Source: a virus. Taken from it: DNA of 29,235 nt. The notes below the pieces were generated by a model that ran no database searches, was not told the DNA's origin, and saw only the letters and a program-made list of their open reading frames with translations. The stretch spans positions 1 to 29,235 of IMG/VR virus record IMGVR_UViG_3300000115_000124; one strand, written 5' to 3'. A program made the position numbers and the translations under genes. Positions 5,345-21,415 of this stretch are shown piece after piece (positions within the stretch are counted from its first letter, which is position 1; each line of letters opens with the position of its first letter).

Positions 5345-5833
5345 TTAGAAATTTAATACTGCGTAATCTATAGCTAATGTTAAACTAATAGATTGTGCTT
5401 GAGCATCTGTATCCCAATTGTATCCATCGAATGTTGCATCTTTAATAAATGCACCTTTTAAAATCCATTCAGAAACTACATCACCAACTGGACCTAATAC
5501 ATTTACTGTAACATCCTTCTTATAGAAATCACTATAACCATCTCTACCTGTTACTGATTCATGGTGTAATCTTACCCACTCCATTACCGCTTGAGCACCT
5601 GAAGGTGTAATTGGGTCATAAAGTTTCATTGTTACATCACTCCATGTTGATTTACCTTTAACTTTACGTTGAACGTTAATGTGATTTAAGGTAACTTCTG
5701 CTTGCTCGATTTTCACTTCTCCAAACTCTTTAATCATATATGATGGAATTCCATCTACATACATGATAAACCTATTTGCTTGTTTTGGTTCAAATGCTGT
5801 GAAAAATATTTCGTTTGGATCTAGTACTGCCAT
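5345..5833 (-). CDS. gp19: Tail tube protein (T4 gp19 family)
   Basis: The 162-aa product has the size and pattern of the T4 gp19 / PF06841 tube family. The N-terminal strand region is FEPKQANRFIMYVDGIPSYM. The central block VTMKLYDPITPSGAQAVMEW is followed by RLHHESVTGRDGYSDFYKKD, then DATFDGYNWDTDAQAQSISL and a final strand DYAVLNF. Hexameric rings of this protein stack to form the inner tube through which DNA passes. It directly follows the sheath gene, as in T4, and has its own ATATTTATAA motif 29 bases upstream and a terminator downstream, both fitting high and separate expression. The start at 5833 gives MAVLDPNEIFFTAFEPKQAN. Confidence 0.93.
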   Translation of the reverse strand: MAVLDPNEIFFTAFEPKQANRFIMYVDGIPSYMIKEFGEVKIEQAEVTLNHINVQRKVKGKSTWSDVTMKLYDPITPSGAQAVMEWVRLHHESVTGRDGYSDFYKKDVTVNVLGPVGDVVSEWILKGAFIKDATFDGYNWDTDAQAQSISLTLAIDYAVLNF

Positions 5834-5887: not shown

Positions 5888-7894
5888 TTACGATGGGAAA
5901 GTTGCTCCTGTTGGAAGAATGTTGAAATCTAAGTAAATAAATTCAGCCGTTTTAGTAGGTTGTAAATAAATAGCACCTATTAATTGGTTTCTATCAATAA
6001 CATCTGGTGTGTTATTAGTAGCATCCATTACTACCTTAAAAGCATATAATCCTTGTCTTTGTTGAACTGATTCTAGGTATGGATTTACTTGGCTTAAGAA
6101 TTGATTTCTTGTAGCTGCTGTATTTTGTTCAAATACTAAGTTATCAGAAATTTGTGCTATATAAGATTTCAATGCAATTAATAACCTTCTAACATTTACT
6201 CTATCTAAAGCACTTGCTTGTGTTTGGAGTGTTTTTTGTCCAAATACTGTAACGCCTTGTCCTGGGAATGTTGCTATTGGGTTTACTTTATTAATATATA
6301 AAGTATCTCTATTTGCTTGAGTTAATTTTCTTTCAGCTTGTCTTACTGTTCCTAATCCACCTCTATTAATACCTGCAGGTGCAAACCATGGCTCAGCTAC
6401 TCTATCAGTATAAGCATAAACTCCTGGAATTAATGCTCCTGCTGGTGCCCATACTAATTGTGCAGTATCTGGATCTGTAATTTGTACCCATGGCCAATAT
6501 GAAGCTGCATATGAAGTATCTAAACTAGCTGCTGTTGAAGAAGCTGCTGTAATTGTTGATCCATAATTTTCAAGATCAATTACTGTAATTGCATCTCCTC
6601 TATTTTCAGTATTTGCTATTAGTGTATTTAATGGTGTTGCATGATCAGCATTAGCATATATTAATCCTGGTGTTGTGATTATATTATAAACATATTCATC
6701 CTGATTTGCTAATAAATTAATTGCATCTGTATAATTAGCACCTGTTAATCCCTGAGTGTCATTATTATCAACATTTTGATAAAAATTATCCCCGGCGCCT
6801 GTGATTTCTCCTACAGCATCTCCAAATGAACCACTTTGAGCTACTGGAATTGAACCTGTATATGCAGGATTTACATTTCCATTATTATCAAAATAATCTG
6901 GGGTTTTAACGTTTACTTCTTTTACTCTTATGTATCTTGAAGCATTTGGATATGAACCTGTTGATTGTAAATATGGATCAGATGAACCTGCTCCTAATAA
7001 GTTTGTTGTTGAATCACCAATTACTCGGGCAATATAATTTGATGCTTTTGGATCTAAAGAAACATTAGTAAATGATTCTAGTACTGATTTTGATTTTGTT
7101 GTATCACTACCTTGTCTAACGATTACAGTAAATACACCTCTTGCAGTATTTGGTGAAGTAATTTCCCATCTTACGTTATTAGTTGATCCTGATGGTAAAG
7201 TTCCTCCTGCTCCTTCTGGTGAAGTACTATTCATTACATCACCTTCAGCTAAAGTTTCTAATGTAAATATATTATTTCCTTCTTGAATATTATCAGCAGC
7301 TAATGTTATGGTTAAATCTGTTCCAAGTGGTTCTGATGCACCTAATGATTCGGAAGTAAATGTAAGTATTTCTCCTGAAGCATAATCTGAACCTGTTGAG
7401 GTTACTGTGATTGAAGCTAATGATTCTGAGTTAGATAGTACAAATGTAAATTCTGCTCCTGCTCCTACTCCATCAGTTAATGATGCCGTAACACCTGTAA
7501 CTGTTCCACCTACTGATCCGGATGCATTAAATGCTCCTGTTACATACGTTCCTACTCCTCCATTTAAACCAGTATTACCTTCTACGTTAGATGAAGTAGC
7601 TGGACTAAATGATCCTGATGCTACTCTAGTAACAATTAAAGAAGTACCTCCGTTTTGGAAGTAGTTAAATGCTGAAATTGAGGTTAAAAAGCTATATTCA
7701 TCAGAAGCACTAGAGAAAGTACTACCAAAATTAGCTAAGTACTCACTATAAGTTGTTACTAAAGTTGGAATATTTACTTTACCTAATACTGTAGGGCCTA
7801 TTATAGCGGCTCCGGCTTGTATAGGTTGGGCTGTAATTTGAGATTGATCGTTTTCTCTCGCTAATACACCTGGTGATAATAATGTTTCTGCCAT
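5888..7894 (-). CDS. gp18: Contractile tail sheath protein (T4 gp18 family)
   Basis: This 668-aa protein has the N-terminus usual for phage sheaths, MAETLLSPGVLARENDQSQI followed by PIQAGAAIIGPTVLGKVNIP, and the motif FLTSISAFNYFQNGGTSLIV at about 68-87. A Gly/Ser/Thr-rich region (about 95-250) is probably a surface-exposed insertion domain. The C-terminal domain, which carries the core sheath fold, includes WPWVQITDPDTAQLVWAPAG, then GQGVTVFGQKTLQTQASALD and VNVRRLLIALKSYIAQISDN. The protein forms the contractile outer tube that drives the inner tube through the host envelope. At 668 residues it is close to T4 gp18 (659). The tube gene follows 54 bases downstream, the conserved order. A variant leader motif (ATATTTATCA) lies 15 bases upstream. 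Confidence 0.95.
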   Translation of the reverse strand: MAETLLSPGVLARENDQSQITAQPIQAGAAIIGPTVLGKVNIPTLVTTYSEYLANFGSTFSSASDEYSFLTSISAFNYFQNGGTSLIVTRVASGSFSPATSSNVEGNTGLNGGVGTYVTGAFNASGSVGGTVTGVTASLTDGVGAGAEFTFVLSNSESLASITVTSTGSDYASGEILTFTSESLGASEPLGTDLTITLAADNIQEGNNIFTLETLAEGDVMNSTSPEGAGGTLPSGSTNNVRWEITSPNTARGVFTVIVRQGSDTTKSKSVLESFTNVSLDPKASNYIARVIGDSTTNLLGAGSSDPYLQSTGSYPNASRYIRVKEVNVKTPDYFDNNGNVNPAYTGSIPVAQSGSFGDAVGEITGAGDNFYQNVDNNDTQGLTGANYTDAINLLANQDEYVYNIITTPGLIYANADHATPLNTLIANTENRGDAITVIDLENYGSTITAASSTAASLDTSYAASYWPWVQITDPDTAQLVWAPAGALIPGVYAYTDRVAEPWFAPAGINRGGLGTVRQAERKLTQANRDTLYINKVNPIATFPGQGVTVFGQKTLQTQASALDRVNVRRLLIALKSYIAQISDNLVFEQNTAATRNQFLSQVNPYLESVQQRQGLYAFKVVMDATNNTPDVIDRNQLIGAIYLQPTKTAEFIYLDFNILPTGATFPS

Positions 7895-8233: not shown

Positions 8234-9634
8234 TTAGAAATACCATATTTGCCCCATAAAGCTAAACCCTCCTGCTAATGCTATATCAGTTACCTCTATT
8301 GTTCCAGAAGAAAGATCGACAGAAAGTGAAGAAGGTTCTGCTGGTGGAGAATAGTACGTAAGTGTAATAAAACAATTAGTTCCTAAAGTTTTACCTGTTA
8401 ATTCAGTTGAAAACCTTGCAGTTGAAAAACTACCACCACCTGATGCTGTTCCTGAAAATAATAATAACTTAGGGTTTTGTGCTGTTGATGTTGCATTATT
8501 AACACTAACAGATGCTGTTACATTTAGTGCTGTTGTTGCTGTTGTTGCTGTTGTTGCTGTTGTTGCTGTTGTTGCGGTTGTTGCGGTTCCAGCATTACCT
8601 TCAATATCATTTGCTAATGTTGTTCCACCATTAAAGGCTAACATATTATCTAATATAGATATTTGATCTGTTCCTAAATATATTGTTGAATCTGTTAGAT
8701 ATAAATCTCTCCATTTTTGAGAAGCATTTCCTAAATCGAACTGCCCATCTGATGATGGGAGAAATGTTGTATCTAATTGTAAGTTATTACTACCATCAAA
8801 GTCTAATGTAGAAGTACCATCAGTAATAGATGAACCACCACCACCTGAGGAGTTGATAGTAACTGCACCAGTTCCTCCTACAGGGGAAATAGTAACATTT
8901 GTTCCTGCTACTATAGATGTAACACCACCACTACCACCGGCTGTAGTTTGAGAAGTACCATCATTAAAATCAATTCGAGAAGCTGATATAGCTCCTGATG
9001 AAGAAATATTACCTAATACTTGTAAAGAACTTGAGTATAGCCCTGAAGGTAGTTGGGCTGAACCCGAAACTACACCTGAAGGGAGGTTAGCTACTGTTTG
9101 TGCTGAACCCGAAACTACACCTGAAGGGAGGTTAGCTACTGTTTGTGCTGAACCCGAAACTACACCTGAAGGTAATAATGAGGGGATTTGAGCTGAACCC
9201 GAAACTACACCTGAAGGGAGGTTAGCTACTGTTTGTGCTGAACCCGAAACTACACCTGAAGGTAATAATGATGGGATTTGAGGAGAACCTGAGACTAAAC
9301 CTGAAGGCAACCCAACATATTCTGATGCTGTAATAGCGCCAGTTACATCTATATCTCCAGATGCTGTAATGTTTGTAAAAGGTTGGAAGATATTATCTGC
9401 TAAAACATAAGAAGATGTTGAAGCTACTCCAAATAAAGATCCGGTTATACCCACACTAGCACTTATAATAGATGCTGTTAAATTGGTTATTGGGGCTTCA
9501 TTAATATTTAATGAACCTGATATAGTAATATCATATGGTGCTATTCCTGTAAATGCATCTACAGACTGAGTTACATTCCATGCTTCAACAGCATTTCCAT
9601 CTGTAATGTTATTTTTTGAAAGTGTATTTGCCAT
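8234..9634 (-). CDS. Repeat-containing tail fibre / virion surface protein
   Basis: This 466-aa protein is beta-rich and Ser/Thr/Gly-rich. Residues 1-108 form an N-terminal region with ITASGDIDVTGAITASEYVG. Residues 109-194 are six copies of a 15-residue repeat with core LPSGVVSGSAQ. Residues 225-270 form a Gly-rich linker. The motif FDLGNASQKWRDLYLTDSTI (about 299-318) is of a kind frequent in phage fibre and spike proteins just before a receptor-binding or trimerising head. Residues 350-369 are a TTA peptide microrepeat. The last hundred residues form a separate C-terminal domain ending GGFSFMGQIWYF. It probably forms a fibre or whisker. It follows the glycosyltransferases and has its own leader motif, so it is also a possible acceptor for them. 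The exact place in the virion is unknown. Confidence 0.75.
   Translation of the reverse strand: MANTLSKNNITDGNAVEAWNVTQSVDAFTGIAPYDITISGSLNINEAPITNLTASIISASVGITGSLFGVASTSSYVLADNIFQPFTNITASGDIDVTGAITASEYVGLPSGLVSGSPQIPSLLPSGVVSGSAQTVANLPSGVVSGSAQIPSLLPSGVVSGSAQTVANLPSGVVSGSAQTVANLPSGVVSGSAQLPSGLYSSSLQVLGNISSSGAISASRIDFNDGTSQTTAGGSGGVTSIVAGTNVTISPVGGTGAVTINSSGGGGSSITDGTSTLDFDGSNNLQLDTTFLPSSDGQFDLGNASQKWRDLYLTDSTIYLGTDQISILDNMLAFNGGTTLANDIEGNAGTATTATTATTATTATTATTALNVTASVSVNNATSTAQNPKLLLFSGTASGGGSFSTARFSTELTGKTLGTNCFITLTYYSPPAEPSSLSVDLSSGTIEVTDIALAGGFSFMGQIWYF
8528..8587 (-). repeat. Nine-base microsatellite encoding (Thr-Thr-Ala)n
   Basis: A nine-base unit (GTTGTTGCT on the plus strand, with GTTGTTGCG variants) recurs about six times and encodes residues 350-369 of the fibre protein. 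Gain or loss of units keeps the frame and would change only the length of this linker. Confidence 0.85.
9053..9310 (-). repeat. Six 45-bp tandem repeats in the fibre gene
   Basis: AACCCGAAACTACACCTGAA recurs exactly every 45 bases at 9061, 9106, 9151, 9196 and 9241, with a diverged copy at 9286. Each unit encodes 15 residues around LPSGVVSGSAQ, with two alternating spacers, TVAN and IPSL. Near identity at DNA level points to recent duplication or gene conversion. Confidence 0.9.
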
Positions 9635-9646
9635 TTGTGGTTTTGT

Positions 9647-9656
9647 TTATAAATAT
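9647..9656 (-). promoter_or_regulatory. ATATTTATAA leader motif before the fibre gene
   Basis: The coding strand reads CTTGATATTTATAAACAAAA. It ends 12 bases before the ATG at 9634 and overlaps the stop codon of the heptosyltransferase-like gene, so fibre expression can be separate from the glycosyltransferase operon. Confidence 0.5.
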
Positions 9657-10855
9657 CAAGAATTTTTTATTCTTTCAATAGCTTTAATTATTAATTCAGG
9701 ATGAATTGATTTAGTACATTCAAACTGTTTTTCTGTGTTTTTGTTTTTGGGACACCATTCCCAATCTCCGGGATCTAATTTTTCTTTATTATAACAACTA
9801 TTACAGGTATTAAGGTCAGGGGTAAATATTCTTTCGCAATCTTTAAATTCACTAAAGGGTGCGCTAAATCCTGATATTAATATTGTTTTTTTATCTAATG
9901 CCCAATTTAACCAACTTAATCCACTACCTATACCTATAAAGAATTCTGCATTCATCATATCATTAGCTCTTTCAGCTAAAGAATAATCTCCAGTTTTATC
10001 AATTACCCCTGTTAAAGTACCCCCTAATTTAGAATCATGCCATTCATCCCCTAAAGGTTCTTTAGTAATCATTACAACTTTATAACCTTTACCATTTAAA
10101 TAATCAATAATAGTTTGCCAACCTCCTGGGGTGTTCCAGTACTTAGCATGAGCAGATCCATGAGGTGCTATGCATACATATTTCCCATCAATTGTGGGGC
10201 CATTATTTGTAAATGTTAAATTAGGTTTTAATTCATTATAATCTATACCTAAAATATCTGCACTACATTCTTGTAAACTATATTTTCTAAAATCACTAGG
10301 GTTAGTTTCATAATTTATAGTATTATTTTCATTATAATGCCAACCAACTTCGTACATAGCATATAAATCAAATACTTCAGTTCCAGGTTTTATAAATTTT
10401 ATGTTAGGGTAATTTTCTTCAAACCATTCATTATAAAAAGTAGAAACAATTAAATCGCAATTGTGTTTTTTTCTAAATTCTTCGGCATAAGGAAACCATG
10501 CTAAAGTATCACCTATTGCTTTTGAAGCAAAGTGAATGTAAACTTTTTTCCCCTGGGCATTATATGAGTGTTCATATATAATATTTCCACTATCTACATC
10601 TTTAACTTTTACTAAATAATTTACAAAATATTGCTTAGTACATTTAGTCCACATATTATTTGTAATTGTGGTTTCATAAACTATTTTCCCATTATCTTGG
10701 TTAATAAATTGAACATTAAATTTTCCTTCTTTTTCACCTAAAATTTCTAAAGTAGAATTATTAATAAAATTTAATTTAAATACATAATCTCCAATTTTAG
10801 ATTTTATGGTTGTTTTCTTTAAGTTATTATATTCTTTAATTAAAACTTCTTTCAT
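9656..10855 (-). CDS. Autotransporter-type O-heptosyltransferase homologue (Aah/TibC family)
   Basis: This 399-aa protein resembles the bacterial autotransporter O-heptosyltransferases, which transfer heptose from ADP-heptose to Ser of repetitive adhesins in the cytoplasm. An N-terminal beta-rich domain spans 1-100. The GT-B core then shows AIGDTLAWFPYAEEF (113-127, with Asp116 a candidate catalytic base) and SLQECSADILGI (193-204). It continues with HAKYWNTPGGWQTII (236-250), GIGSGLSWLNWAL (308-320) and ISGFSAPFSEF (327-337). Four Cys (351, 354, 368, 380) with the spacing CxxC...WCP...FEC match the metal-binding finger of the TibC type. The length fits the family. It overlaps the upstream glycosyltransferase by ATGA, so it is translationally coupled. 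The donor sugar is uncertain, because ADP-heptose synthesis would depend on the host. Family assignment is strong, substrate is inference. Confidence 0.85.
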   Translation of the reverse strand: MKEVLIKEYNNLKKTTIKSKIGDYVFKLNFINNSTLEILGEKEGKFNVQFINQDNGKIVYETTITNNMWTKCTKQYFVNYLVKVKDVDSGNIIYEHSYNAQGKKVYIHFASKAIGDTLAWFPYAEEFRKKHNCDLIVSTFYNEWFEENYPNIKFIKPGTEVFDLYAMYEVGWHYNENNTINYETNPSDFRKYSLQECSADILGIDYNELKPNLTFTNNGPTIDGKYVCIAPHGSAHAKYWNTPGGWQTIIDYLNGKGYKVVMITKEPLGDEWHDSKLGGTLTGVIDKTGDYSLAERANDMMNAEFFIGIGSGLSWLNWALDKKTILISGFSAPFSEFKDCERIFTPDLNTCNSCYNKEKLDPGDWEWCPKNKNTEKQFECTKSIHPELIIKAIERIKNS

Positions 10856-11802
10856 AAAAACTGATTGTATATTTTGATAATTTCTTTACTACGATTATAC
10901 CATGATAATCTATTTGAGGTTTCTAAACATTGATTCTTATAAGATTTCCAATTATTTAATATATCTTTTAACCCTTGATCCATTTTAAATATATCACGTG
11001 GGGCTCTCCAACACCCATGCAAATCAACTTCCATCTCCCAATCAGCTATAACAGGCAAACCTGCAGCCATAGCTTCAATCATTGTTAAATTTGGATGACC
11101 TGCCTCTAACATAGTGGGGTGGATGAAAATATCGTGGAGGTGAAATAAATTTAATAGTTTATTATTAGGTGTATCAAATACTAAATTTAGTTTAGGATAA
11201 CTTAACATCCAAAGATGACCATTAAAAAAATTTTTATTATTAGAAGGTCCAGCTATAGTAATTTCTAAATCATTCATCATAGCTAATCCTAAACCATATT
11301 CAAATCCTTTTCTATCAAACGTATGATCACCCCCTAAACCATTATTGGCTAACATTAATAATTTTGGATTAGTAGGGAGAGGATGATATGTTTTTTGGTA
11401 AAAATCATCAGTGTTTACACCATGAGAAAAATAAACACATTTTGGGTGGTTAAAATAATCAACTAACCAATTAGCAGGCATTAAAGATATTAATGAACCC
11501 TCTATGGCTTGTAAATTTTCTTTATATACACGAGATTCTTTACCATAATGTAATACATGGTGATCATGTAATTGGTAAATATAAGGTATACCTCTTTCTT
11601 GTAAGCTAATTGCTAAATTAGCTACATGACAATGGACTATATCAAATTCTTCAGGAATAATATCACCAGCCATTTTGTGGATAGAATCATGACCTAATTT
11701 AGTTTGATTAATTTCAAATTCCCATATAATTTTTTCAATTGCCCCCCAATCCTTAGGAGGTATATTTAAACCACATGCTGGGTCTACATGACATATTTTC
11801 AT
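10852..11802 (-). CDS. GT4-like glycosyltransferase
   Basis: The 316-aa product has a GT-B fold pattern. The N-terminal domain starts MKICHVDPACGLNIPPKDWG, followed by FDIVHCHVANLA (53-64) and YIYQLHDHHVLHYG, a form common in GT4 acceptor domains. The C-terminal donor domain has LLMLANNGLGGDH, then DLEITIAGPSN, HDIFIHPTMLEAGHPNLTMI and EAMAAGLPVIADWE. The two acidic residues that usually form the E-x7-E motif are here E233 and E243, slightly further apart. There is no membrane segment. It overlaps both flanking glycosyltransferases by four bases, making a three-enzyme operon. It probably extends or starts a glycan on a virion protein. Donor and acceptor are not determinable from sequence. Confidence 0.85.
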   Translation of the reverse strand: MKICHVDPACGLNIPPKDWGAIEKIIWEFEINQTKLGHDSIHKMAGDIIPEEFDIVHCHVANLAISLQERGIPYIYQLHDHHVLHYGKESRVYKENLQAIEGSLISLMPANWLVDYFNHPKCVYFSHGVNTDDFYQKTYHPLPTNPKLLMLANNGLGGDHTFDRKGFEYGLGLAMMNDLEITIAGPSNNKNFFNGHLWMLSYPKLNLVFDTPNNKLLNLFHLHDIFIHPTMLEAGHPNLTMIEAMAAGLPVIADWEMEVDLHGCWRAPRDIFKMDQGLKDILNNWKSYKNQCLETSNRLSWYNRSKEIIKIYNQFL

Positions 11803-14453
11803 AGTTTAATATCTCCTTTTATATTAGTTTCACTTATTTTATGGTCTACCAAACTATGGCCTTTTGCTTGGAAAACCAAAGGTTCTTTAAAAAATCCTTT
11901 AGGTTCATTTCTAAAATTATTAGTTACCCATAAGTCAAAAGCATCCCATTTTGAATTTTTTATCACAGCATGGACTCTATCAATTTTATTCCCCATAATT
12001 AAATAAGAATGTGCATCTGTAAACATACCAGCATCCAGATGGTTTTCATATTCATTAAATACTTCATAATTATGAGCAAAGCTAAAGAAAGTATATTTTT
12101 TTTCTTTAGATATTTCAATGGATTTATATAATTTATTTACAAACTCTTCAGTATCAATTAATAACAAAGCATCACATTCGAAAAATAGATATGTTGTATC
12201 ATCATCTTTAGGACAAGACATTATTGCATCTGTGTGTGCTTTAAAACAACCATAATGTCCATAAGATAATTTATAATAACCTGGTTCTGGTTGTACATCA
12301 TTAGGTCTATTACAAGTTCCTATAGGAAGTAAATCTGTGTTTGGATTATTTATTACTTGAGTGTATTCTATATCTTTAAATTCACCTAACTTACTAATTG
12401 ATTCTATTGACCTTTGCTCCCTTTCAGAATTTGGTTGTGATAATAAATGTATTATTTCTACTTTAGGTTTAGGTAATTCTCCTTTCCATCTAAAATGACC
12501 ATTATTAGATAAATTATTAAAATATTCTTCATCTATAATGAATTCTTTAGTTTCTATAAAATCATCTCCATTAAAAATATTAAATTCTACCCTATAGTTA
12601 TTTTCAAATTTAATTAAATCCCAAAATGAATATTTTTGATCTATATTTAATTCTCTATCAATAATTAATTCTTCATTTTTATAAACTTTATATTTAACTA
12701 TTCTACTATCTTTGCTATTAGAAATGTAAAAATAAGGTACAAAATAATTTGGAACGTTTGTAGGTAAAATAGAAAAATATTCTATACGAGAAAAATCTTT
12801 ATGTAAAAATATTTCTTGTGTTTTCAATTCAAATAAATTTTCTTTTTCTCTATATATTGCTCCTTCATTTTTAAAAATATGATGGAATAAATTTTCTAAA
12901 CCGTTAGATTCAGAACCATAAACTTCCATTAAATTATCATATTCTTCTCCTGTAGTTATTTTAGGTAATACTCTTAATAGTTCTTTGGGGTTCGCTGAAA
13001 AGAAATAAGTGTATAAAGCATCTCCTTCCATAGGGTGATGGTTAGAAAAGTAAAAATTGTTTTTATTTAAAATTTTAGAAATATCTTTTATTCCTTGTTT
13101 ATCTTTTAAAATATAATCATAATTTAAAAAATGGACTTTAGAATAATTTAATTGAGTAGATAAAGCAGCACCATTATAATAATTAGTGTAAACTGAGGGG
13201 CCATGATATACGTCATTATTTTCACCTTTTAAATTAAGATCAACATCATATAAATCACTATTCCAATAAAATTTTTCATAAAATGTATGTTTAGTTAAAA
13301 TATTATTAGTATCGACAATACAATAATCTGCTTGATCTTGAAGAATTTTAGGAATTGAAATGTGTGAGGTTAATATAACTTTATAACCATTATCTTGTAT
13401 GGATTTTACGCAGTCTAACGTTGTATTAATAATGCTATCTGTTGATGGGTACGTTGATACTACAAAAACTTCATCGTGTATTAATACATTAAAATTAATA
13501 TCTAAATTTGATTTAATTAAATTACAATTTTTTTCAAAATTATTAGGTTCTAAGTAATTAATAGATTCAAATTTATCAAAATAATTAAGGTAAACTGGTA
13601 GGTTATATAATAATTGAGGTATTCGATATGATAATGCTTCACGAATTACTAAGGGCATTGTTTCCTTATCATTATTAGTACCACGAGATGTAAATAAAAA
13701 TAAATCCATAGATTGGTAAAAATTATTTACATCCGAACGTTCATTCCACCATGTTAGATTATTAGGTTTATCCCCCATTAAAGGTTCCCAATAATGTTTA
13801 AAATTTTCTGCTTGATTTCCTACACAATGAAATTCATACTCAGGTAATGCTTTAGCATATTTAAAAAATTCTTCTTGGTTTTTTCTTGGGGTGAATAAGC
13901 CTATGTGTAATATATGTTTTTTTGTAGGATCTAGACCTAATTTTTCTAAGCTTTCTTTTCTATTAGGTCTATCAATATATTCAATTGGGTATTCTACTAA
14001 AGATTTTGGTATATCTAAACCTTTATATTGATTTATTTGCCATTGAGAGACAAACATAAATTTATCTGGGAAGAAACGTTTTTGGGATGTATCAAAAGAT
14101 GAGTCATGAGATGTTTCTACAATAAAATAATCTCTATCTAAAGTATATAATTTTTTAGATACCTCATTATCCATAAAATATTCAGGAATTTCTTCTAAAT
14201 GAACTATATTAGGTTTTAAATCATTAATAATGTCTAAAAGTTCAAATTTATTTTCTCCTAAAGTATAAAATTTATCAGAATCAACTAAATCTACAAGTTT
14301 ATCTCTTTGTATAGTAAGAACTCCCCCAGTACAATCCACCCATTCAACAAGATAAATTTCAAAATCTTGCTTTAATAGTTCTATTTTTTTAACTAAATAT
14401 TGAGGTAGACCTCCTGTAGATAGATGTGGGGCTACATATAGTAGTTTTTTCAT
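11799..14453 (-). CDS. Multidomain glycosyltransferase with GT-B N-terminus and GT25-like C-terminus
   Basis: This 884-aa protein appears to have at least three parts. Residues 1-320 look like a GT-B enzyme: LLYVAPHLSTGGLPQYLVKK at the N-terminus, HILHIGLFTPRKNQEEFFKY (180-199), then DLFLFTSRGTNNDKETMPLV and REALSYRIP. Residues 327-545 start VFVVSTYPSTDSIINTTLDC and resemble nucleotide-sugar-binding folds, but are less certain. Residues 550-650 are beta-rich. Residues 664-875 resemble GT25: EIIHLLSQPNSEREQRSIES, then LSYGHYGCFKAHTDAI (729-744) in place of the usual GEIGC-SH motif, and TYLFFECDALLL (754-765) in place of the acidic EDD metal-binding motif. Relatives of GT25 include lipooligosaccharide and collagen galactosyltransferases. 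It lies 52 bases after the 47-aa frame and couples to the next gene by ATGA. Confidence 0.78.
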   Translation of the reverse strand: MKKLLYVAPHLSTGGLPQYLVKKIELLKQDFEIYLVEWVDCTGGVLTIQRDKLVDLVDSDKFYTLGENKFELLDIINDLKPNIVHLEEIPEYFMDNEVSKKLYTLDRDYFIVETSHDSSFDTSQKRFFPDKFMFVSQWQINQYKGLDIPKSLVEYPIEYIDRPNRKESLEKLGLDPTKKHILHIGLFTPRKNQEEFFKYAKALPEYEFHCVGNQAENFKHYWEPLMGDKPNNLTWWNERSDVNNFYQSMDLFLFTSRGTNNDKETMPLVIREALSYRIPQLLYNLPVYLNYFDKFESINYLEPNNFEKNCNLIKSNLDINFNVLIHDEVFVVSTYPSTDSIINTTLDCVKSIQDNGYKVILTSHISIPKILQDQADYCIVDTNNILTKHTFYEKFYWNSDLYDVDLNLKGENNDVYHGPSVYTNYYNGAALSTQLNYSKVHFLNYDYILKDKQGIKDISKILNKNNFYFSNHHPMEGDALYTYFFSANPKELLRVLPKITTGEEYDNLMEVYGSESNGLENLFHHIFKNEGAIYREKENLFELKTQEIFLHKDFSRIEYFSILPTNVPNYFVPYFYISNSKDSRIVKYKVYKNEELIIDRELNIDQKYSFWDLIKFENNYRVEFNIFNGDDFIETKEFIIDEEYFNNLSNNGHFRWKGELPKPKVEIIHLLSQPNSEREQRSIESISKLGEFKDIEYTQVINNPNTDLLPIGTCNRPNDVQPEPGYYKLSYGHYGCFKAHTDAIMSCPKDDDTTYLFFECDALLLIDTEEFVNKLYKSIEISKEKKYTFFSFAHNYEVFNEYENHLDAGMFTDAHSYLIMGNKIDRVHAVIKNSKWDAFDLWVTNNFRNEPKGFFKEPLVFQAKGHSLVDHKISETNIKGDIKL

Positions 14454-14505
14454 ATAACTTATTTGGTTTTTGGTAATATAACATCTTATTTTTAATATTC
14501 CAATC

Positions 14506-14649
14506 TTACTTGGTTTTTTTCTTTAAAGAATGTACCAGTGGTGGTTTAGTTGAAATAGTAACATTTTTTAAATCTTCTAAAGTAATATCTACTATTGGTA
14601 TGTTACTATCTTTTATCTGTTTTGCTATTTTAGGTGTTAATTTTATCAT
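14506..14649 (-). CDS. 47-residue peptide between fibre and glycosyltransferase genes
   Basis: A short frame starts at 14649, two bases after the fibre stop codon (TAATTATGA), and ends at 14506. The product begins MIKLTPKIAKQIKDSNIPIV, contains DITLEDLKN, and ends in a basic tail SLKKKTK. It has no hydrophobic segment. The close stop-start spacing points to translational coupling with the fibre, and GAAGG lies eight bases ahead of the ATG. Filling an otherwise empty gap, with sensible composition, supports a real gene. A fibre-assembly chaperone is a common kind of gene in this place, but nothing in the sequence shows that function. Confidence 0.55.
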   Translation of the reverse strand: MIKLTPKIAKQIKDSNIPIVDITLEDLKNVTISTKPPLVHSLKKKTK

Positions 14650-14651
14650 AA

Positions 14652-17600
14652 TTATCCTTCTGGAGAGTATCCTGGGAATACATAAGGTTCACCTTGCACA
14701 TTTATCCTTAACCATACATCAGGTGTACCTGTAACATTACTGTCAGGTTGATTACCCCATATCATGTTTATCCCTGCTCCACCTTCTGGGTTTTGCATTG
14801 TTGGTGGATTAAATGGATCGTCAATTCTTGCGGTATCTGTTCTTGTTTGACCTGTATTATATAAAACATTGGTCGAATTATTTGCTGTAACAAAATCTAC
14901 TGAAGATACTTGTGTTGTTGAATCAGTTTTAACTAAATAATCTGGGTGATTAACAAAAGCACCACCACTAATACCACTTGTACCATTTATACTAGTACCT
15001 GAAGTTCCTGGGACACCTGATGTACCATTTGTTCCATTCTTACCTGATGTTCCATTTGCACCACTTTGTCCTGAAGTTCCGGATGCTCCTGTAGTACCAT
15101 TTCCTCCATTTACCCCTGAAGTTCCGGATGCACCATTTCGTCCTGAAGTTCCTGCTGCTCCTGAAGTTCCTGAAGCACCATCTATTCCTGAAGTACCATT
15201 CGAGCCATTAGTTCCATTTACACCTGAAGCACCATTTGCACCACTTGTACCATTTGCACCATTTGTTCCATTTGTTCCGGAAACACCATTCTTACCACTT
15301 GTACCATTTGCTCCTGTTGTACCATTCCCACCGTTAGTACCATTAGTACCTGATACTCCGTTTTTACCGCTTGTACCGTTAGCTCCAGTAGTACCATTTC
15401 CTCCATTTACCCCTGAAGTTCCTGATGCTCCGTTTTTACCTGAAGTTCCTGCTGCTCCTGTTGTACCTGAAGTTGCTGCAACACCTGAAGTTCCTGCAGC
15501 ACCATCTACACCTGAAGTACCATTTGAACCGTTTGTACCATTTACACCTGATGCTCCATTTGCACCACTTGTACCATTTGCACCATTTGTTCCATTTGTT
15601 CCTGAGACTCCGTTTTTACCGCTTGTTCCATTAGCACCAGTTGTACCATTCCCACCGTTAGTACCATTAGTACCTGATGCTCCGTTTTTGCCTGAGGTTC
15701 CTGCTGCTCCTGTTGTACCATTTGCACCGTTTGTACCTGAAGTTCCTGATGCACCATTTTTACCTGAAGTTCCTGCTGCTCCTGTTGTTCCTGATGTTGC
15801 AGCGACACCACTTGTTCCGGCAGCACCATCTATACCTGAAGTACCATTTGAACCATTAGTTCCACTTACTCCTGAAGCACCACTAGCGCCTGAAGTACCA
15901 GGATCTCCTGATGTACCATGTGTACCATCTTTTCCAGAGGTACCATTTGTACCATTTTTACCTGAAGTAGCTGCGACACCTGAAGTACCTGCAATACCAT
16001 TTTTACCATTTGTACCTGCTGAACCATTTGTTCCACTTGTAGCTGATAAACCTGAAGTACCTGCTACTCCCGAAGTTCTATTAGCACCTGAAGAACCAAA
16101 TGTTCCAGATGTAGTACTTGAACCTGAAGTTCCTGCAACTCCTGAAGTTCTACTATCACCTGAAGTGCCATTAGTACCACTTGTAGCTGATAAACCTGAA
16201 GTACCTGCTGCTCCATCTACACCGGAAGTACCATTAGAACCATTTGTTCCACTTACTCCTGAAGCGCCTGAAGCACCTGAAGTACCTGGATCTCCTGAAG
16301 TACCGTTAGTACCATCTTTACCTGAAGTACCTGCAACACCTGTTTTACCACTTGTTCCATTATCACCTGATGTACCATTTGTACCATCTTTACCTGAAGT
16401 ACCATTAGTACCATTTTTACCTGATGTTCCTGCTACTCCTGAAGTACCACTACCTCCATCTACACCTGAAGTTCCTGAAGAACCTGAAGTTCCTGAAACT
16501 GCTGAAGCACCATTTGCACCTGCTGTACCATTAGATCCTGAAGAACCTGTTGTTCCTGAAGTACCTGATTTTCCTGAAGTACCTCCTACACCTGAAGTTT
16601 TATTATCTCCTGAAGAACCTACTGTTCCTGAAGTATTACTTGAACCTGAAGTCCCTGCTATACCTGAAGTTCTACTAGCACCAGATGAACCAAAGGTTCC
16701 AGATGTAGTACTTGAACCTGAAGTTCCGGCTTGTCCTGAAGTTCTACTATTACCAGATGAACCATTTGTTCCGCTTGTAGCTGATAAACCTGAAGTTCCG
16801 GATGCTCCATCTATACCTGAAGTACCATTTGAGCCATTTGTTCCGCTTACACCTGAAGCACCTGAAGCGCCTGAAGTTCCAGGATCTCCAGATGTACCAT
16901 TTGTTCCATCTTTACCTGATGTTCCTGCTACCCCATTTTTACCACTTGTACCTGCAGCACCTGTTGTACCTGAAGTAGCTGCGACACCTGAAGTACCTGC
17001 AATACCATTTTTCCCTGAAGTACCTGCTGAACCATTTGTTCCGCTTGTACCTGCTACTCCACTTGTACCTGATCCTCCATCTGTACCACTTGTACCTGCT
17101 GAACCATTAGTTCCACTTACACCTGAAGCACCTGAAGCACCTGAAGTACCTGGATCTCCTGAGGTACCTGCTGTACCATCTTTTCCAGAGGTACCATTTG
17201 TACCATTTTTGCCTGAAGTTGCAGCAACACCTGAAGTTCCAGCTACACCATTCTTACCTGAGGTACCTGCTGAACCATTTGTTCCGCTTGTACCTGCTAC
17301 TCCACTTGTACCTGATCCTCCATCTGTACCTGAAGTACCTGCTGAACCTGAAGTACCTGAAACTGCTGAAGCACCATTTGCACCTGCTGTGCCAGAAGTA
17401 CCTGAAGAGCCTGTTGTACCTGAAGTACCAGATTGACCTGAAGTACCTATTAATCCATTTTTACCTGAAGTTCCTGATGAGCCTGTTGTACCTGATGTTG
17501 ATGCAACACCACTTGTACCAGAAGCACCATCTATACCTGAAGTTCCTGATGAGCCTGAAGTTCCTGAAACTGCTGAAGCACCATTTGCACCTGCTGTACC

Positions 17601-20468
17601 TGCTGAACCTGTTGAACCTGAAGTTCCTGAAGTTCCACTTACTCCTGAAGTTCCACTTGCCCCTGTACCTGAAGTTCCTGTTGAACCTGCTGTACCTGAA
17701 GTACCTGAAATAGCACTAGTTCCACTAGCTCCATCTATACCACTTGTTCCTGCTGAGCCACTAGTTCCACTAACAGCTGAAGCACCATTTGCTCCTGCCG
17801 TACCAGAAGTACCAGATGAACCTGTTGTACCTGAAGTACCAGATTGGCCTGAAGTTCCTACTATGCCATCTTTACCTGAAGTACCACTTGAACCTGTTGT
17901 TCCTGAAGTACCACTATCACCTGAGGTTCCTGAAGCTCCATCTATACCACTTGTTCCTGCTGAACCTGAAGTTCCACTTACACCCGAAGCACCTGAAGCA
18001 CCTGAAGTACCTGTTGATCCTGAAGTTCCTGAAGTTCCACTTACGCCTGAAGTTCCTGATGCTCCTGTACCTGAAGTTCCTGTTGAACCTGCTGTACCTG
18101 AAGTACCTGAAATAGCACTAGTTCCACTAGCTCCATCTATACCACTTGTTCCTGCTGAACCTGAAGTACCTGAAACTGCTGAAGCACCATTTGCACCTGC
18201 TGTACCTGAAGTACCAGATGAACCTGTTGTACCTGAAGTACCAGCTTTACCTGAAGTTCCTATTATACCATCTTTACCTGAAGTTCCTGAAGAACCTGTT
18301 GTTCCTGAAGTACCACTATCACCTGAGGTTCCTGAAGCTCCATCTATACCTGAAGTACCTGATGAGCCTGAAGTTCCTGAAACACCTGATGCTCCACTGT
18401 CACCTGAAGTACCTGTTGAACCTGAAGTTCCTGAAGTACCACTTACACCTGAAGTTCCACTTGCTCCTGTACCTGAAGTACCTGTACTACCTGCAGTACC
18501 ACTTGTACCTGATATAGCACTTGTACCACTTGCTCCATCTATACCTGAGGTTCCGGCTGAACCACTAGTTCCACTTACACCTGAAGCTGCACTAGCTCCT
18601 GAAGTACCTGGGAGTCCTGATGTACCTGAAGTACCTGCCGTACCTGATGTATTTCCTTCTCCATTATTTCCTGCAGTACCTGTTGAACCTGATGTTCCTG
18701 AAGTACCTGAAGATCCTGATCCTCCATCTATACCTGAAGTACCTGAAGATCCTGTTGTACCTGAAACGGCTGATGCTCCTGATGCTCCTGCTGTACCTGA
18801 AGAGCCGGTTGTTCCTGAAGTTCCTGATGAACCTGTTAACCCTGAAGTGCCGCTTGTACCTGAAGTACCACTTGTACCACTTGCTCCATCTATACCACTA
18901 GTACCTGCTGAACCAGAAGTTCCAGAAACTGCACTTGCTCCATTATCTCCTTGGGTTCCTGATGAACCTGTTGAACCTGAAGTACCTGATGAACCTGTTA
19001 ATCCTGAAGTGCCGCTTGTACCTGAAGTACCACTTGTACCTGCAGTACCACTATCTCCATCTATTCCTGATGTTCCTGATGAACCTGAAGTACCACTTAT
19101 ACCTGAAGCTCCACTATCGCCTGAAGTACCACTCGAACCTGTTGTTCCTGAGGTGCCTGATGTGCCTGAAGTACCTGAGGTACCTGCTAAACCACTTGTA
19201 CCACTTGCTCCTGTACCACTTGTACCAGTTGAGCCTGATGTACCTGAAGTACCATTAGCCCCTGAAGTAGCATTAATTCCTGATGTACCTGAAGTACCTG
19301 AAGATCCTGCTGTACCTGAAGATCCTGCTGTACCTGATGTGCCTGAAATTCCTGAGGTACCACTTACACCTGTACCACTTGTACCAGTTGATCCTGAAGT
19401 ACCTGAAGTACCGCCTTGACCTGAGGTTCCTGAAAATCCTATAGTTCCTGAAGTACCGGTTGTACCTGAAGTTCCTGACGTACCTGAAGTTCCAGATGTA
19501 CCAGCTTTCCCTGATGTACCACTATCACTTCTACCGCTTGATCCTACGGAGCCACTTGAACCACTTGTACCTGATTTTCCTGATGTACCAAGTGAACCTG
19601 AATTACCAGCGGATCCTTCAGTACCAGAAGTGCCTGAAGTGCCATCTAAACCACTTTGTCCAGATTGACCATTTGAACCAAAAGTACCATTTGTACCTGA
19701 TTTTCCAGAAGTACCTGATGAACCTGTTAAACCTGAAGTACCATTTATACCTGAAGATCCATTTTCTCCTGATGTACCTGATAAACCAGAAGTACCACTT
19801 ATACCTGAAGAACCTATTTCTCCAGATGTGCCTGATGTACCGGAATCTCCTGAAGTACCACTTGTTCCTGATGATCCTGCAGTACCTGAAGTACCACTTG
19901 TTCCTGATCCTCCTCCTGCTCCTGGGAGTGTTCTATATTGAATTTTTTTAGTTGATAGATCGTAAGTAGCTACTGTAAATAAATCTGATCTTTCTGTAAG
20001 TGAATCAATAGATAATGGATCTGTTCCATTTATACTAAATGAACCTGTTAATTTTAAATCAGTATTATCATAATCAAATGTAAATTTATTAGAACCACTT
20101 AATTCAGTACTACCTGCTGAACCAGAAGCAAATTGGATTTCTGTATCTGAACCACCTGCACTTTCGCCTTCTGGAATAAATATTGTAACTCCTCCATTAG
20201 GAAGTGAAGTTACATCAACACCTCCACCTGTAAAAAATAAGGATTGTGCATAATTTACTTGTGAACCAGTATAATATACTTGAACACCTCCTATACCAGG
20301 TAAAGTACTTAAATCTATACTTTGAGATAAAGGAGGAGTACTACCAGTAAAGAAAAAGTTAACTACACTACCTGCTAATGAGCTAGAATAAAAAAGTGAT
20401 GAAAAATTTCCATCTACTTCACTGAATGTTAATTCAGATCCTTTATTTTGTCTTAAAATAATACTCAT
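14652..20468 (-). CDS. Giant collagen-like fibre protein (Gly-Thr-Ser repeats)
   Basis: This 1938-aa protein has three parts. Residues 1-186 form a non-repetitive N-terminus. It opens MSIILRQNKGSELTFSEVDG, a pattern often seen at the virion-attachment end of tail fibres, and contains IQFASGSAGSTELSGSNKFT. Residues 187-1835 are about 550 Gly-x-y triplets, dominated by GTS, GSS, GAS, GID, GKN and GNG and nearly free of Pro. Residues 1836-1938 form a distinct C-terminal domain (HPDYLVKTDSTTQVSSVDFV, then PDVWLRINVQGEPYVFPGY) that may bind a receptor or trimerise. If the triplets form a triple helix with about 0.29 nm rise per residue, the shaft would be about 470 nm long. It overlaps gp15 by ATGA and is followed by three glycosyltransferases, suggesting its many Ser, Thr and Asn residues are glycosylated. 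That link is inferred. Confidence 0.85.
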   Translation of the reverse strand: MSIILRQNKGSELTFSEVDGNFSSLFYSSSLAGSVVNFFFTGSTPPLSQSIDLSTLPGIGGVQVYYTGSQVNYAQSLFFTGGGVDVTSLPNGGVTIFIPEGESAGGSDTEIQFASGSAGSTELSGSNKFTFDYDNTDLKLTGSFSINGTDPLSIDSLTERSDLFTVATYDLSTKKIQYRTLPGAGGGSGTSGTSGTAGSSGTSGTSGDSGTSGTSGEIGSSGISGTSGLSGTSGENGSSGINGTSGLTGSSGTSGKSGTNGTFGSNGQSGQSGLDGTSGTSGTEGSAGNSGSLGTSGKSGTSGSSGSVGSSGRSDSGTSGKAGTSGTSGTSGTSGTTGTSGTIGFSGTSGQGGTSGTSGSTGTSGTGVSGTSGISGTSGTAGSSGTAGSSGTSGTSGINATSGANGTSGTSGSTGTSGTGASGTSGLAGTSGTSGTSGTSGTTGSSGTSGDSGASGISGTSGSSGTSGIDGDSGTAGTSGTSGTSGTSGLTGSSGTSGSTGSSGTQGDNGASAVSGTSGSAGTSGIDGASGTSGTSGTSGTSGLTGSSGTSGTTGSSGTAGASGASAVSGTTGSSGTSGIDGGSGSSGTSGTSGSTGTAGNNGEGNTSGTAGTSGTSGLPGTSGASAASGVSGTSGSAGTSGIDGASGTSAISGTSGTAGSTGTSGTGASGTSGVSGTSGTSGSTGTSGDSGASGVSGTSGSSGTSGIDGASGTSGDSGTSGTTGSSGTSGKDGIIGTSGKAGTSGTTGSSGTSGTAGANGASAVSGTSGSAGTSGIDGASGTSAISGTSGTAGSTGTSGTGASGTSGVSGTSGTSGSTGTSGASGASGVSGTSGSAGTSGIDGASGTSGDSGTSGTTGSSGTSGKDGIVGTSGQSGTSGTTGSSGTSGTAGANGASAVSGTSGSAGTSGIDGASGTSAISGTSGTAGSTGTSGTGASGTSGVSGTSGTSGSTGSAGTAGANGASAVSGTSGSSGTSGIDGASGTSGVASTSGTTGSSGTSGKNGLIGTSGQSGTSGTTGSSGTSGTAGANGASAVSGTSGSAGTSGTDGGSGTSGVAGTSGTNGSAGTSGKNGVAGTSGVAATSGKNGTNGTSGKDGTAGTSGDPGTSGASGASGVSGTNGSAGTSGTDGGSGTSGVAGTSGTNGSAGTSGKNGIAGTSGVAATSGTTGAAGTSGKNGVAGTSGKDGTNGTSGDPGTSGASGASGVSGTNGSNGTSGIDGASGTSGLSATSGTNGSSGNSRTSGQAGTSGSSTTSGTFGSSGASRTSGIAGTSGSSNTSGTVGSSGDNKTSGVGGTSGKSGTSGTTGSSGSNGTAGANGASAVSGTSGSSGTSGVDGGSGTSGVAGTSGKNGTNGTSGKDGTNGTSGDNGTSGKTGVAGTSGKDGTNGTSGDPGTSGASGASGVSGTNGSNGTSGVDGAAGTSGLSATSGTNGTSGDSRTSGVAGTSGSSTTSGTFGSSGANRTSGVAGTSGLSATSGTNGSAGTNGKNGIAGTSGVAATSGKNGTNGTSGKDGTHGTSGDPGTSGASGASGVSGTNGSNGTSGIDGAAGTSGVAATSGTTGAAGTSGKNGASGTSGTNGANGTTGAAGTSGKNGASGTNGTNGGNGTTGANGTSGKNGVSGTNGTNGANGTSGANGASGVNGTNGSNGTSGVDGAAGTSGVAATSGTTGAAGTSGKNGASGTSGVNGGNGTTGANGTSGKNGVSGTNGTNGGNGTTGANGTSGKNGVSGTNGTNGANGTSGANGASGVNGTNGSNGTSGIDGASGTSGAAGTSGRNGASGTSGVNGGNGTTGASGTSGQSGANGTSGKNGTNGTSGVPGTSGTSINGTSGISGGAFVNHPDYLVKTDSTTQVSSVDFVTANNSTNVLYNTGQTRTDTARIDDPFNPPTMQNPEGGAGINMIWGNQPDSNVTGTPDVWLRINVQGEPYVFPGYSPEG
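14964..19910 (-). repeat. Collagen-like triplet repeat tract
   Basis: About 4.9 kb in units of nine bases encode Gly-x-y triplets. Gly, Thr and Ser codons vary from unit to unit (GGT/GGA/GGC, ACT/ACA, TCA/TCT/AGT). Triplets lacking Gly (AVS, AIS, ATS, RTS, TTS) and two-residue Gly-Thr insertions before GAS or GVS interrupt the pattern. Toward the C-terminal end GTS gives way to Asn-Gly-rich triplets. Confidence 0.95.
17300..18540 (-). repeat. 402-bp higher-order tandem repeat inside the collagen-like tract
   Basis: The landmark ATAGCAC recurs at 17710, 18112 and 18514, exactly 402 bases apart, with flanking sequence shared over long stretches. In protein each unit is 134 residues and contains GIDGASGTSAISGTSG, then GTGASGTSGVSG, KDGI and GANGASAVSG. 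The copy nearest the C-terminal end of the fibre is shortened and all three have diverged by point changes. Confidence 0.8.
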
Positions 20469-21415
20469 TCTTCGTTAAAATTTGCAGGGTTTGTATCATT
20501 TATTATCTCTGTAGGATCTGGTTGATTATAATTATTGATTTTATTTATATCTGTTGTTGAAATTTCCATGTTAAATATAATCTGTGAACTATCACTATAT
20601 TTTTTAATAGCAGTTAAATCTTTTTGTATTGTGTCTGGTACTACATACCCATGTAGTTTTAGACTAAAATTTGCTTTTACTAACCTTTCCCCACCGGATG
20701 AAATTTCAAGAGGGGTTGCAAAATTATCTACTCTTGCTATAAACTGAAATTGTTCTGGATTTCCCCAATATGCATCTGATGCGTAATTAAACGCTTCAAT
20801 TAATTTATTTAGTTGCTCAATATAGTACGTAGAGATAATGAAGTCGTACGTTATATTTACATAATCAGGCATGACCACGGCATAGCGTGTTTTTGTTGGG
20901 GTAGTATTGTTTAATATGTTAAAATTACTATATGTATTTGCAGGATTATAATTTTTTGTAAAAAGTTGAGCATTATGGGGATTATTAGAATCTAATTTAT
21001 TAGACAAACTTCTAACTTTTTCTATATTGTTACGTTTAAAAGTAATTAAGGGCATCATTATTTTACCTTTTTGATCCCTATAATAACCATCTTTTTGTAC
21101 TTGTTTCCACCTTTCAGGATTACCATAAATAACAGGGACTTTTTGTACTACGCCATTTTGTATTACTGTAGGTTTAATTACATTTTCCATGTAATAAAAA
21201 ATAGATTCATCAATTTCTTTAAATCCTAAAGAAAAGGGTTTCGTAGTATCATTTCTGAAAGAAGATTGTTCACCTCTATTAAACTTAGGCGTTGGGTTTG
21301 GATTACCAATTTCAGAAAACCCCATAGCACCCGCAGGTGGAACATAAGGTTCAATCTGGGAATTCATTATCTCTCTTTGAGTTTTTGGTACTGGTATTTT
21401 TCCTTTTTCTGCCAT
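20465..21415 (-). CDS. gp15: Tail sheath stabilizer / tail terminator (T4 gp15-like)
   Basis: The 316-aa protein has the segment order of T4 gp15. KVPVIYGNPERWKQVQKDGY (about 93-112) corresponds to the gp15 IPVTYASKEHF region. YDFIISTYYIEQLNKLIEAF (about 190-209) corresponds to YELSIFTRYEDDMFQIVEQI. LVKANFSLKLHGYVVPDT (about 244-261) corresponds to the WSLTFEVNGWMYP strand. This family caps the finished tail tube and sheath as a hexamer and joins the tail to the head. It follows gp14 with stop and start directly adjacent, and overlaps the fibre gene by four bases. The N-terminal 60 residues and the Asn-rich C-terminus look disordered. The match is by pattern recall, not by search. Confidence 0.8.
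   Translation of the reverse strand: MAEKGKIPVPKTQREIMNSQIEPYVPPAGAMGFSEIGNPNPTPKFNRGEQSSFRNDTTKPFSLGFKEIDESIFYYMENVIKPTVIQNGVVQKVPVIYGNPERWKQVQKDGYYRDQKGKIMMPLITFKRNNIEKVRSLSNKLDSNNPHNAQLFTKNYNPANTYSNFNILNNTTPTKTRYAVVMPDYVNITYDFIISTYYIEQLNKLIEAFNYASDAYWGNPEQFQFIARVDNFATPLEISSGGERLVKANFSLKLHGYVVPDTIQKDLTAIKKYSDSSQIIFNMEISTTDINKINNYNQPDPTEIINDTNPANFNEE

Follow-up and report, generated by a model that had tools for sequence, protein, structure and literature searches.

Why should a T4-like phage keep three glycosyltransferase genes beside the gene for a very long fibre, and what do the enzymes act on? The question is raised by IMG/VR virus record IMGVR_UViG_3300000115_000124, whose positions 1 to 29,235 (29,235 nucleotides, here called the window) hold a T4-like phage fragment in which the fibre gene, a 47-aa open reading frame (ORF) and the three transferase genes all lie on the minus strand. 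We consider it likely, from comparison of genes and genomes, that these genes form a phage-encoded fibre-glycosylation cassette in which serines in the Y positions of a proline-free collagen-like fibre would be O-heptosylated and the heptose extended by the other transferases. A first-pass annotation of the window had suggested that the phage makes and sugar-coats its own collagen-like fibre; this is supported by our comparison, in which a fibre ORF accompanies the heptosyltransferase in 50 of 55 long loci and a serine motif in the fibre tracks the enzyme. The ORF list and translations place all five ORFs of the annotated region (9656-20468) where that annotation had them:

14652..20468, minus strand: collagen-like fibre, 1938 aa, the proposed sugar acceptor (Pfam Collagen, 588 bits; 477 triplets)
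14955..19904, minus strand: Gly-X-Y domain of the fibre, residues about 189-1838, rich in G-[S/T]-S-G and nearly proline-free
14506..14649, minus strand: 47-aa ORF between the fibre and the enzymes (ORF list; relatives compared)
11799..14453, minus strand: 884-aa multidomain glycosyltransferase (Pfam; structure model)
11802..12488, minus strand: GT25-like C-terminal domain of the 884-aa enzyme (Foldseek and VIA on the predicted domain)
10852..11802, minus strand: 316-aa GT4-type glycosyltransferase (weak Pfam match just below the cut-off)
9656..10855, minus strand: 399-aa Aah/TibC-type protein O-heptosyltransferase, the proposed priming enzyme (TIGR04414; PDB TibC)

The fibre belongs to the collagen-like class by its long uninterrupted Gly-X-Y runs and by its match to PF01391 (588 bits). 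Its 477 triplets, counted in runs of at least six, include a longest run of 53; residue shuffling never gave more than 21 triplets (200 shuffles) or a run longer than 12 (1000 shuffles). Threonine is the commonest residue in the X position (T 229, A 65, S 54) and serine in the Y position (S 270, N 79, A 50), and residues 186-1838 contain six prolines in total. The N- and C-terminal pieces of the fibre gave no match in PHROG.

The heptosyltransferase label given earlier to the 399-aa enzyme holds: it matches TIGR04414 at 320.7 bits (curated cut-off, 200) and TibC in the PDB (4rap) with an E-value of 6.5e-59, and searching the PDB with a profile of 13 diverse relatives retrieves TibC with an E-value of 2.5e-90. 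Residues reported to be needed in TibC are Asp110, Lys230, Arg286, Trp305 and the iron-finger cysteines (PMC4358343, in the part of the text available). Counted over 174 enzyme domains (duplicates included), the equivalents of Asp110 (D116 in the window) and Lys230 (K238) are each kept in 173, that of Trp305 (W315) in all 174, and each of the four iron-finger cysteines (C351, C354, C368 and C380) in 172; Arg286 is present in the window (R296) and is kept in only 111. The donor contact Thr226 of TibC is Ser in the window (S234), the ring thumb of TibC differs in sequence in the window enzyme and is deleted in L001 and L002, and the position that sets the heptose epimer, occupied by Pro300 in TibC and by Ser294 in Aah, has Gly in the window enzyme (and, of the 174 domains, Gly in 136 and Ser in 35). 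As with Aah and TibC, a Ser-rich, repetitive candidate acceptor is encoded next door; however, the acceptor of Aah and TibC is a beta-helical autotransporter passenger, whereas that expected for the phage enzyme is a collagen-like fibre, and what adjoins the enzyme at the loci is a collagen-like fibre instead. Also unlike Aah and TibC, each of nine longer relatives scanned is fused to GT4, FkbM or another domain, and the enzyme of Microcystis phage Mel-JY01 is likewise a fusion.

We then asked how regularly enzyme and fibre occur together. In an annotated phage collection, tblastn found the heptosyltransferase in four of 50,697 records (that of Mel-JY01 and three from uncultured huge phages, two of them equally long) and the 884-aa enzyme in two records; because annotated relatives are so few, the survey was built on uncultured IMG/VR contigs. 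In one scan, at least 585 viral stretches carry a relative of the heptosyltransferase. Three scans, two of them heptosyltransferase profile scans that contributed their best 80 matches each, gave 164 loci, of which 123 differ in enzyme sequence; a separate tail-sheath scan for relatives likewise supplied its best 80. A Gly-X-Y ORF is present in 75 of the 123, in 73 of the 100 loci of at least 10 kb and in 50 of the 55 of at least 15 kb. Random viral loci, drawn by one arbitrary 14-base pattern and all shorter than 15 kb, have such an ORF in 7 of 120 cases (4 of 40 of at least 10 kb) and a heptosyltransferase in none of the 120. The co-occurrence survey that the first-pass annotation had named as a check is thus mostly favourable, with 50 of 55 loci of at least 15 kb set against 4 of 40 random loci of at least 10 kb; the enzymes are not routinely carried without a Ser/Thr-rich repeat fibre, the pattern that it had said would count against its proposal.

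The five long loci that lack a fibre divide into three (L312, L332 and L352) whose records hold a collagen match outside the locus and two (L307 and L350) whose records hold none. Of 90 loci from two of the three scans (duplicates included), 52 reach more than 500 nt beyond the left end of the 884-aa gene, and a Gly-X-Y ORF is present in 48 of the 52; among the other four, L074 and L075 break off inside a Gly/Ser/Thr-rich open fragment within 0.8 kb, L068 has three genes sized like those of L067 (a variant described below), and L082 has unidentified genes to the contig edge (one was scanned and has no Pfam family). When the enzymes are clustered at 60% identity, 17 of the 25 clusters with a locus of at least 12 kb have a fibre in the locus, and in three of the other eight (L294, L312 and L332) a collagen match is found elsewhere in the record.

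The pairing also persists through rearrangement. In L025 and L069 the enzymes lie beside the capsid gene and the fibre is convergent downstream on the other strand; in huge phages, including L001, the enzyme domains are fused (with GT4, FkbM-methyltransferase or DXD-transferase domains) and the fibre is on the opposite strand. Enzyme and fibre occur together in the 735-kb phage LR756501 and in Mel-JY01 as well. In the latter (190 kb; L003, PP395634.1, 2-3052 and 4750-8430), the annotation divides the 1016-aa plus-strand Gly-X-Y frame into shorter genes that lie on either strand, and the C-terminal part of the protein annotated as 'methyltransferase FkbM' is the TIGR04414 enzyme (317 bits).

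The sequence of the fibre follows the enzyme. For comparison, we used an unselected viral Gly-X-Y set, that is, 120 loci on viral contigs picked by Gly-codon spacing alone; one of them, L224, was excluded for holding the enzyme, so 119 were compared with 75 enzyme-linked fibres. The median number of G[ST]SG motifs per 100 triplets is 45 in the enzyme-linked and 0 in the unselected fibres (p 2e-24); the value is above 0 in 74 of the 75 and exactly 0 in 82 of the 119. The median fraction of Ser in the Y position is 0.58 vs 0.02, and the Pro fraction is 0.001 vs 0.12. Even enzyme-linked fibres dominated by G-A-Q (L325, L327, L341 and L356) still carry G-[S/T]-S-G blocks. A reciprocal search of whole records covered 42 of the 120 unselected records, namely 17 of the 18 with at least three motifs (leaving out L183, which has three motifs in 15 triplets) and 25 of the 102 others, and eight added records (sheath relatives and Flavobacterium phage immuto); it found the enzyme in 6 of the 17 with at least three motifs (L224 being known beforehand) and in none of the 25 with fewer. 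Among relatives identified by their sheath that lack the enzyme, the motif is absent from the Gly-X-Y fibres of L128 and of the near copies L125 and L126. The common GT2 and GT4 families do not track the motif: among 35 Gly-X-Y records, GT2 is present in 2 of 10 motif-rich records without the enzyme vs 11 of 25 motif-poor records, and GT4 in 1 of 10 vs 7 of 25 (L177 and L245, motif-bearing and without the enzyme, were left out of this check). On three contigs of 32-55 kb (L249, L212 and L236), G[ST]SG-rich collagen-like proteins occur with no heptosyltransferase, GT2 or GT4 match; these are either partial contigs or unglycosylated fibres.

What the other two transferases are is less evident from sequence. 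The 316-aa protein matches GT4 weakly, with a score just short of the Pfam cut-off. A model of the 884-aa enzyme built from 33 sequences (predicted local distance difference test, pLDDT, 86.5) has a GT-B, GT4-like domain at residues 1-325 (matched to GT4 enzymes with Z 25.7, 300 residues aligned, root-mean-square deviation (rmsd) 2.9), a region at about 328-550 that we read as GT-A-like, a beta-sandwich at about 555-650 and a C-terminal GT-A domain, GT25-like in the model, at 656-884. Predicted alone (pLDDT 85.9; predicted template modelling score, pTM, 0.86), the C-terminal domain finds human COLGALT1 at ranks 1, 2 and 5 in Foldseek (E 8.4e-7 to 8.2e-6; rank 5 is COLGALT1 in complex with LH3, and ranks 3 and 4 bear the bare title 'a glycosyltransferase'), with LH3 further down and then mimivirus R699 at rank 14. 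A Pfam search of the 884-aa protein up to an E-value of 0.1 gave no GT25 match, and a profile of its C-terminal domain found nothing among the PDB sequences. The earlier description of this protein as a GT25 relative is therefore not upheld by Pfam and draws some support from the predicted fold, which is GT25-like though not exclusively so. The enzyme resembles COLGALT1 and mimivirus R699/R655 in this fold match and in having a collagen-like candidate acceptor nearby; it differs from COLGALT1 in having no detectable sequence similarity to it, and Pfam recognised no lysyl hydroxylase in the window cassette.

The cassette had also been called self-contained, which is true only in part: no sugar-donor genes are present in the window, but close relatives carry heptose-kinase-like and adenylyltransferase-like genes. 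A gene like heptose-1-phosphate adenylyltransferase (rfaE_dom_II-like) is found in 10 of 30 enzyme-bearing vs 4 of 45 control records (one with an E-value of only 2e-4), an enrichment that is suggestive only, because the control records are smaller. Searches confined to the 30 enzyme-bearing records found a heptose-7-phosphate-kinase-like gene in eight and a GmhA-like isomerase in three. In the close relatives L025, L030 and L119, the kinase-like gene scores 98-125 bits with rfaE_dom_I vs 33-52 with ribokinase, and L030 and L119 also hold the adenylyltransferase-like gene; in L337 and L340 (near copies) the kinase-like, adenylyltransferase-like and GmhA-like genes are all present. Of these matches, only the GmhA of the 636-kb phage LR756504 passes its own cut-off. 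Kinase-like proteins of 245-248 aa are encoded by large relatives of the window phage (L509:1520-2263, L510:1308-2042 and L511:1354-2097); together with the adenylyltransferase-like gene of L030 and L119, these short proteins resemble a split HldE.

Several observations weigh against a fibre-glycosylation cassette. The loci come from similarity scans and are non-independent. The clearest exception is LR756504, whose enzyme has 33% identity and whose entire record gave no collagen match; no collagen match was found either in the records of L307 (52.7 kb), L350 (15.5 kb), L303, L316, L318, L344 and L351, although IMG/VR records may be fragments, or for the enzyme clusters of L002, L098, L100, L307 and L318 (L098 and L100 being searched at the locus only). 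From the side of the fibre, 11 of the 17 motif-bearing Gly-X-Y records have no heptosyltransferase, and six of these are 32-68 kb long; among enzyme-less sheath relatives, L143 has 18 motifs (the fragment is cut inside the fibre) and L160 has one. In L067 the fibre beside the enzyme is proline-rich, with P in 74% of the X positions, and contains no G[ST]SG. In the VIA comparison, the C-terminal domain of the 884-aa enzyme matches COLGALT1 with Z 15.7 (rmsd 3.4, 202 aligned) and GnT-I with Z 16.5, which is a tie. Finally, most of the heptose-pathway matches fall short of the curated cut-offs, and the controls are on the whole smaller than the enzyme-bearing records.

These exceptions have to be set beside what other explanations would leave unexplained. 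The transferases might alter surface glycans of the host (receptor masking or superinfection exclusion) and adjoin the fibre through a shared role in host recognition, as has been proposed, with the host O-chain as target, for glycosyltransferases in a pelagimyophage host-recognition cluster (PMC7029224, available text, which also describes hypervariable regions shared by fibre and glycosyltransferase genes in other T4-like phages). Two of the three window enzymes do have GT4-type domains, which are common in polysaccharide synthesis; however, the family of the proposed priming enzyme modifies protein serines in its studied members, its gene is ATGA-coupled within a run of structural genes adjoining the sheath, and a host target does not predict that the enzyme should follow a Ser motif inside the fibre, so we regard this explanation as unlikely. 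We would give about the same small weight to a different virion acceptor, with the fibre as a bystander. The candidate at hand is the adjacent Ser-rich 466-aa protein (8234-9634), and mycobacteriophages are known to glycosylate capsid and tail-tube proteins (Freeman 2023, as cited in the available part of PMC12363180); yet the 466-aa protein is missing from many relatives, 44 of the 88 relatives in which enzyme-to-sheath spacing could be read (duplicates included) have no gene of at least 150 aa in between, and a Gly-X-Y ORF is near the enzyme in 48 of 52 loci and also where the cassette adjoins the capsid gene.

The association might also be a by-product of shared ancestry or composition, that is, of Ser-rich repeats in AT-rich aquatic phages, with no link of enzyme to substrate. 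It is true that the loci stem from similarity scans, that the median GC is 0.34 in the enzyme-bearing set vs 0.45, and that Ser-rich Gly-X-Y proteins without the enzyme exist (the 11 of 17 records above). Against this, the motif contrast holds when both sets are restricted to GC below 40% (107 enzyme loci, duplicates included, vs 39; p 3.5e-12), the Ser plus Thr content of the other ORFs is alike (0.136 in enzyme-bearing loci vs 0.130), the pairing recurs in 17 of 25 enzyme clusters with varied gene orders and fusions, and the enzyme-less sheath relatives L125, L126 and L128 have Gly-X-Y fibres that lack the motif; we consider a by-product a little less probable still than either of the alternative targets.

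Glycosylation of the fibre by its own cassette thus remains the explanation that we favour. During late gene expression, the 399-aa enzyme would move heptose, most likely from an ADP-heptose, onto fibre serines, chiefly those that occupy Y in G-[S/T]-S-G triplets. The case for these serines joins the motif association to the preference of TibC, which in a TibA peptide modified Ser and not Thr (PMC4358343, available text); therefore, we infer that Y-position Ser is the acceptor. The 316-aa and 884-aa transferases would then extend or decorate the heptose, and in relatives methyl-, carbamoyl- and other transferases would join the same cassette. On a fibre presumably borne by the virion, the sugars would most likely stabilise and coat a collagen-like rod without proline. 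The collagen triple helix is normally held together by proline; because the phage fibre is without it, stabilisation is an attractive purpose, which we rate as likely as hardening against proteases, masking or an effect on adsorption.

A more specific idea is offered tentatively and may well prove wrong. Hydroxyproline is the stabilising residue of animal collagen; in the phages, glycosylated Ser might take its place, with a proline-free helix held by O-heptosylation of Y-position Ser, G-[S/T]-S-G serving as the recognition sequence, the Aah/TibC-type enzyme (often fused) as the writer, and some phages bringing part of the ADP-heptose supply. L067 would be a hydroxyproline-type alternative. 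In that locus (L067:1-6414), two GT2 enzymes and a 2OG-Fe(II) oxygenase (PF13640, 53.9 bits) lie between the proline-rich fibre and the enzymes. The 2OG-Fe(II) oxygenase superfamily takes in prolyl hydroxylases, and the locus looks like a hydroxyproline-based alternative in which the heptosyltransferase is still present; its cassette is possibly a phage route for prolyl hydroxylation and glycosylation. Other variants include a carbamoyltransferase in the L069 cassette (8383-10017) and an FkbM methyltransferase in that of L117 (4395-5273), which suggest capping of the glycan.

Known systems resemble parts of this arrangement. The glycosylation enzymes of BclA, a protein of the Bacillus exosporium, differ from those of the phage cassette. 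BclA itself is similar in being a glycosylated microbial collagen-like rod, whose sugar is believed to aid the hydration network and stability; the bacterial collagen regions are described as proline- and threonine-based (PMC8968730, available text, for these statements), whereas the phage fibre is nearly proline-free and Ser dominates its Y position. Mycobacteriophages encode transferases that act on virion proteins (Freeman 2023, as cited in PMC12363180 and PMC12619734), as is proposed for the present cassette; their acceptors are capsid and tail-tube proteins, and the word 'collagen' is absent from both citing papers. A literature search by title and start of abstract, with most subscription journals and preprints out of reach, found no paper on an Aah/TibC-type phage enzyme or a glycosylated phage collagen.

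In a large group of bacterial viruses, a long collagen-like tail fibre appears to be encoded next to enzymes that coat its serines with sugars. If our explanation is correct, widespread tailed phages, jumbo and huge phages included, build glycosylated collagen-like fibres with their own enzymes, and a family of enzymes that modifies bacterial adhesins extends to viral collagens. It would supply a testable acceptor rule (G-[S/T]-S-G), suggest a proline-free route to collagen stability and offer enzymes for producing glycosylated collagen-like materials; phage glycosyltransferases encoded beside fibres could also be read otherwise than as modifiers of host O-antigen.

On the minus strand, the cassette is read in the order 316-aa protein, fibre, 47-aa ORF, 884-aa, 316-aa and 399-aa transferases, followed by a Ser-rich 466-aa protein, an 83-aa protein, the tail sheath and the tail tube. 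The flanking features are:

20465..21415, minus strand: 316-aa protein, called gp15 in the first-pass annotation; overlaps the fibre start by 4 nt
8234..9634, minus strand: 466-aa Ser-rich second fibre-like protein with VVSGSAQ repeats, a possible alternative acceptor
5888..7894, minus strand: tail sheath, bounding the cassette on its downstream side (phrog_23 tail sheath, 253.9 bits)
5345-5833, minus strand: tail tube

The transferase genes had been described as ATGA-coupled or closely spaced, and ATGA overlaps are present at the junctions of the 884-aa with the 316-aa gene and of the 316-aa with the heptosyltransferase gene; another joins the upstream 316-aa gene (20465-21415) to the fibre gene. 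The gaps from the fibre gene to the 47-aa ORF and from there to the 884-aa gene are 2 and 52 nt. The 47-aa ORF, possibly a fibre accessory protein, is retained in some relatives, and others have different genes in its place. The phrog_23 match confirms the tail sheath next to the cassette, and the tail tube is confirmed as well; a family match was looked for and not found for the supposed gp15. Insertion of the cassette between gp15 and the sheath, also claimed earlier, fits three enzyme-less relatives, L126, L128 and L138: next after their gp15-like gene comes a small p83-like gene and/or the sheath, in what looks like the empty site. In L141 and L172, likewise enzyme-less, other genes fill the interval.

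As a candidate T4-type late promoter, TATAAATA was rejected: it occurs nine times in the window vs 6.1 expected, and 19 of 100 shuffles reach nine; because this count is near chance, its presence 74 nt upstream of the fibre start is no evidence for a promoter. Compared with known phages at the nucleotide level, the first 25,000 of the 29,235 bases are similar only to the capsid gene of Flavobacterium phage immuto (four records, 2% of the query); in immuto (MW353175.1, 160 kb), searches for the enzyme and for a collagen match found neither. Opposite the fibre, the plus strand has open frames at 15688-17436 (582 aa) and 17863-19419 (518 aa), which we read as a shadow of the Gly-X-Y codons and not as genes. 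The VVSGSAQ-type repeats of the 466-aa protein are encoded by 45-nt tandem repeats at 9053-9307 that are weakly or not conserved in relatives, and L138 (10001-14295) has a tandem pair of tail-sheath-like genes (731 and 596 aa).

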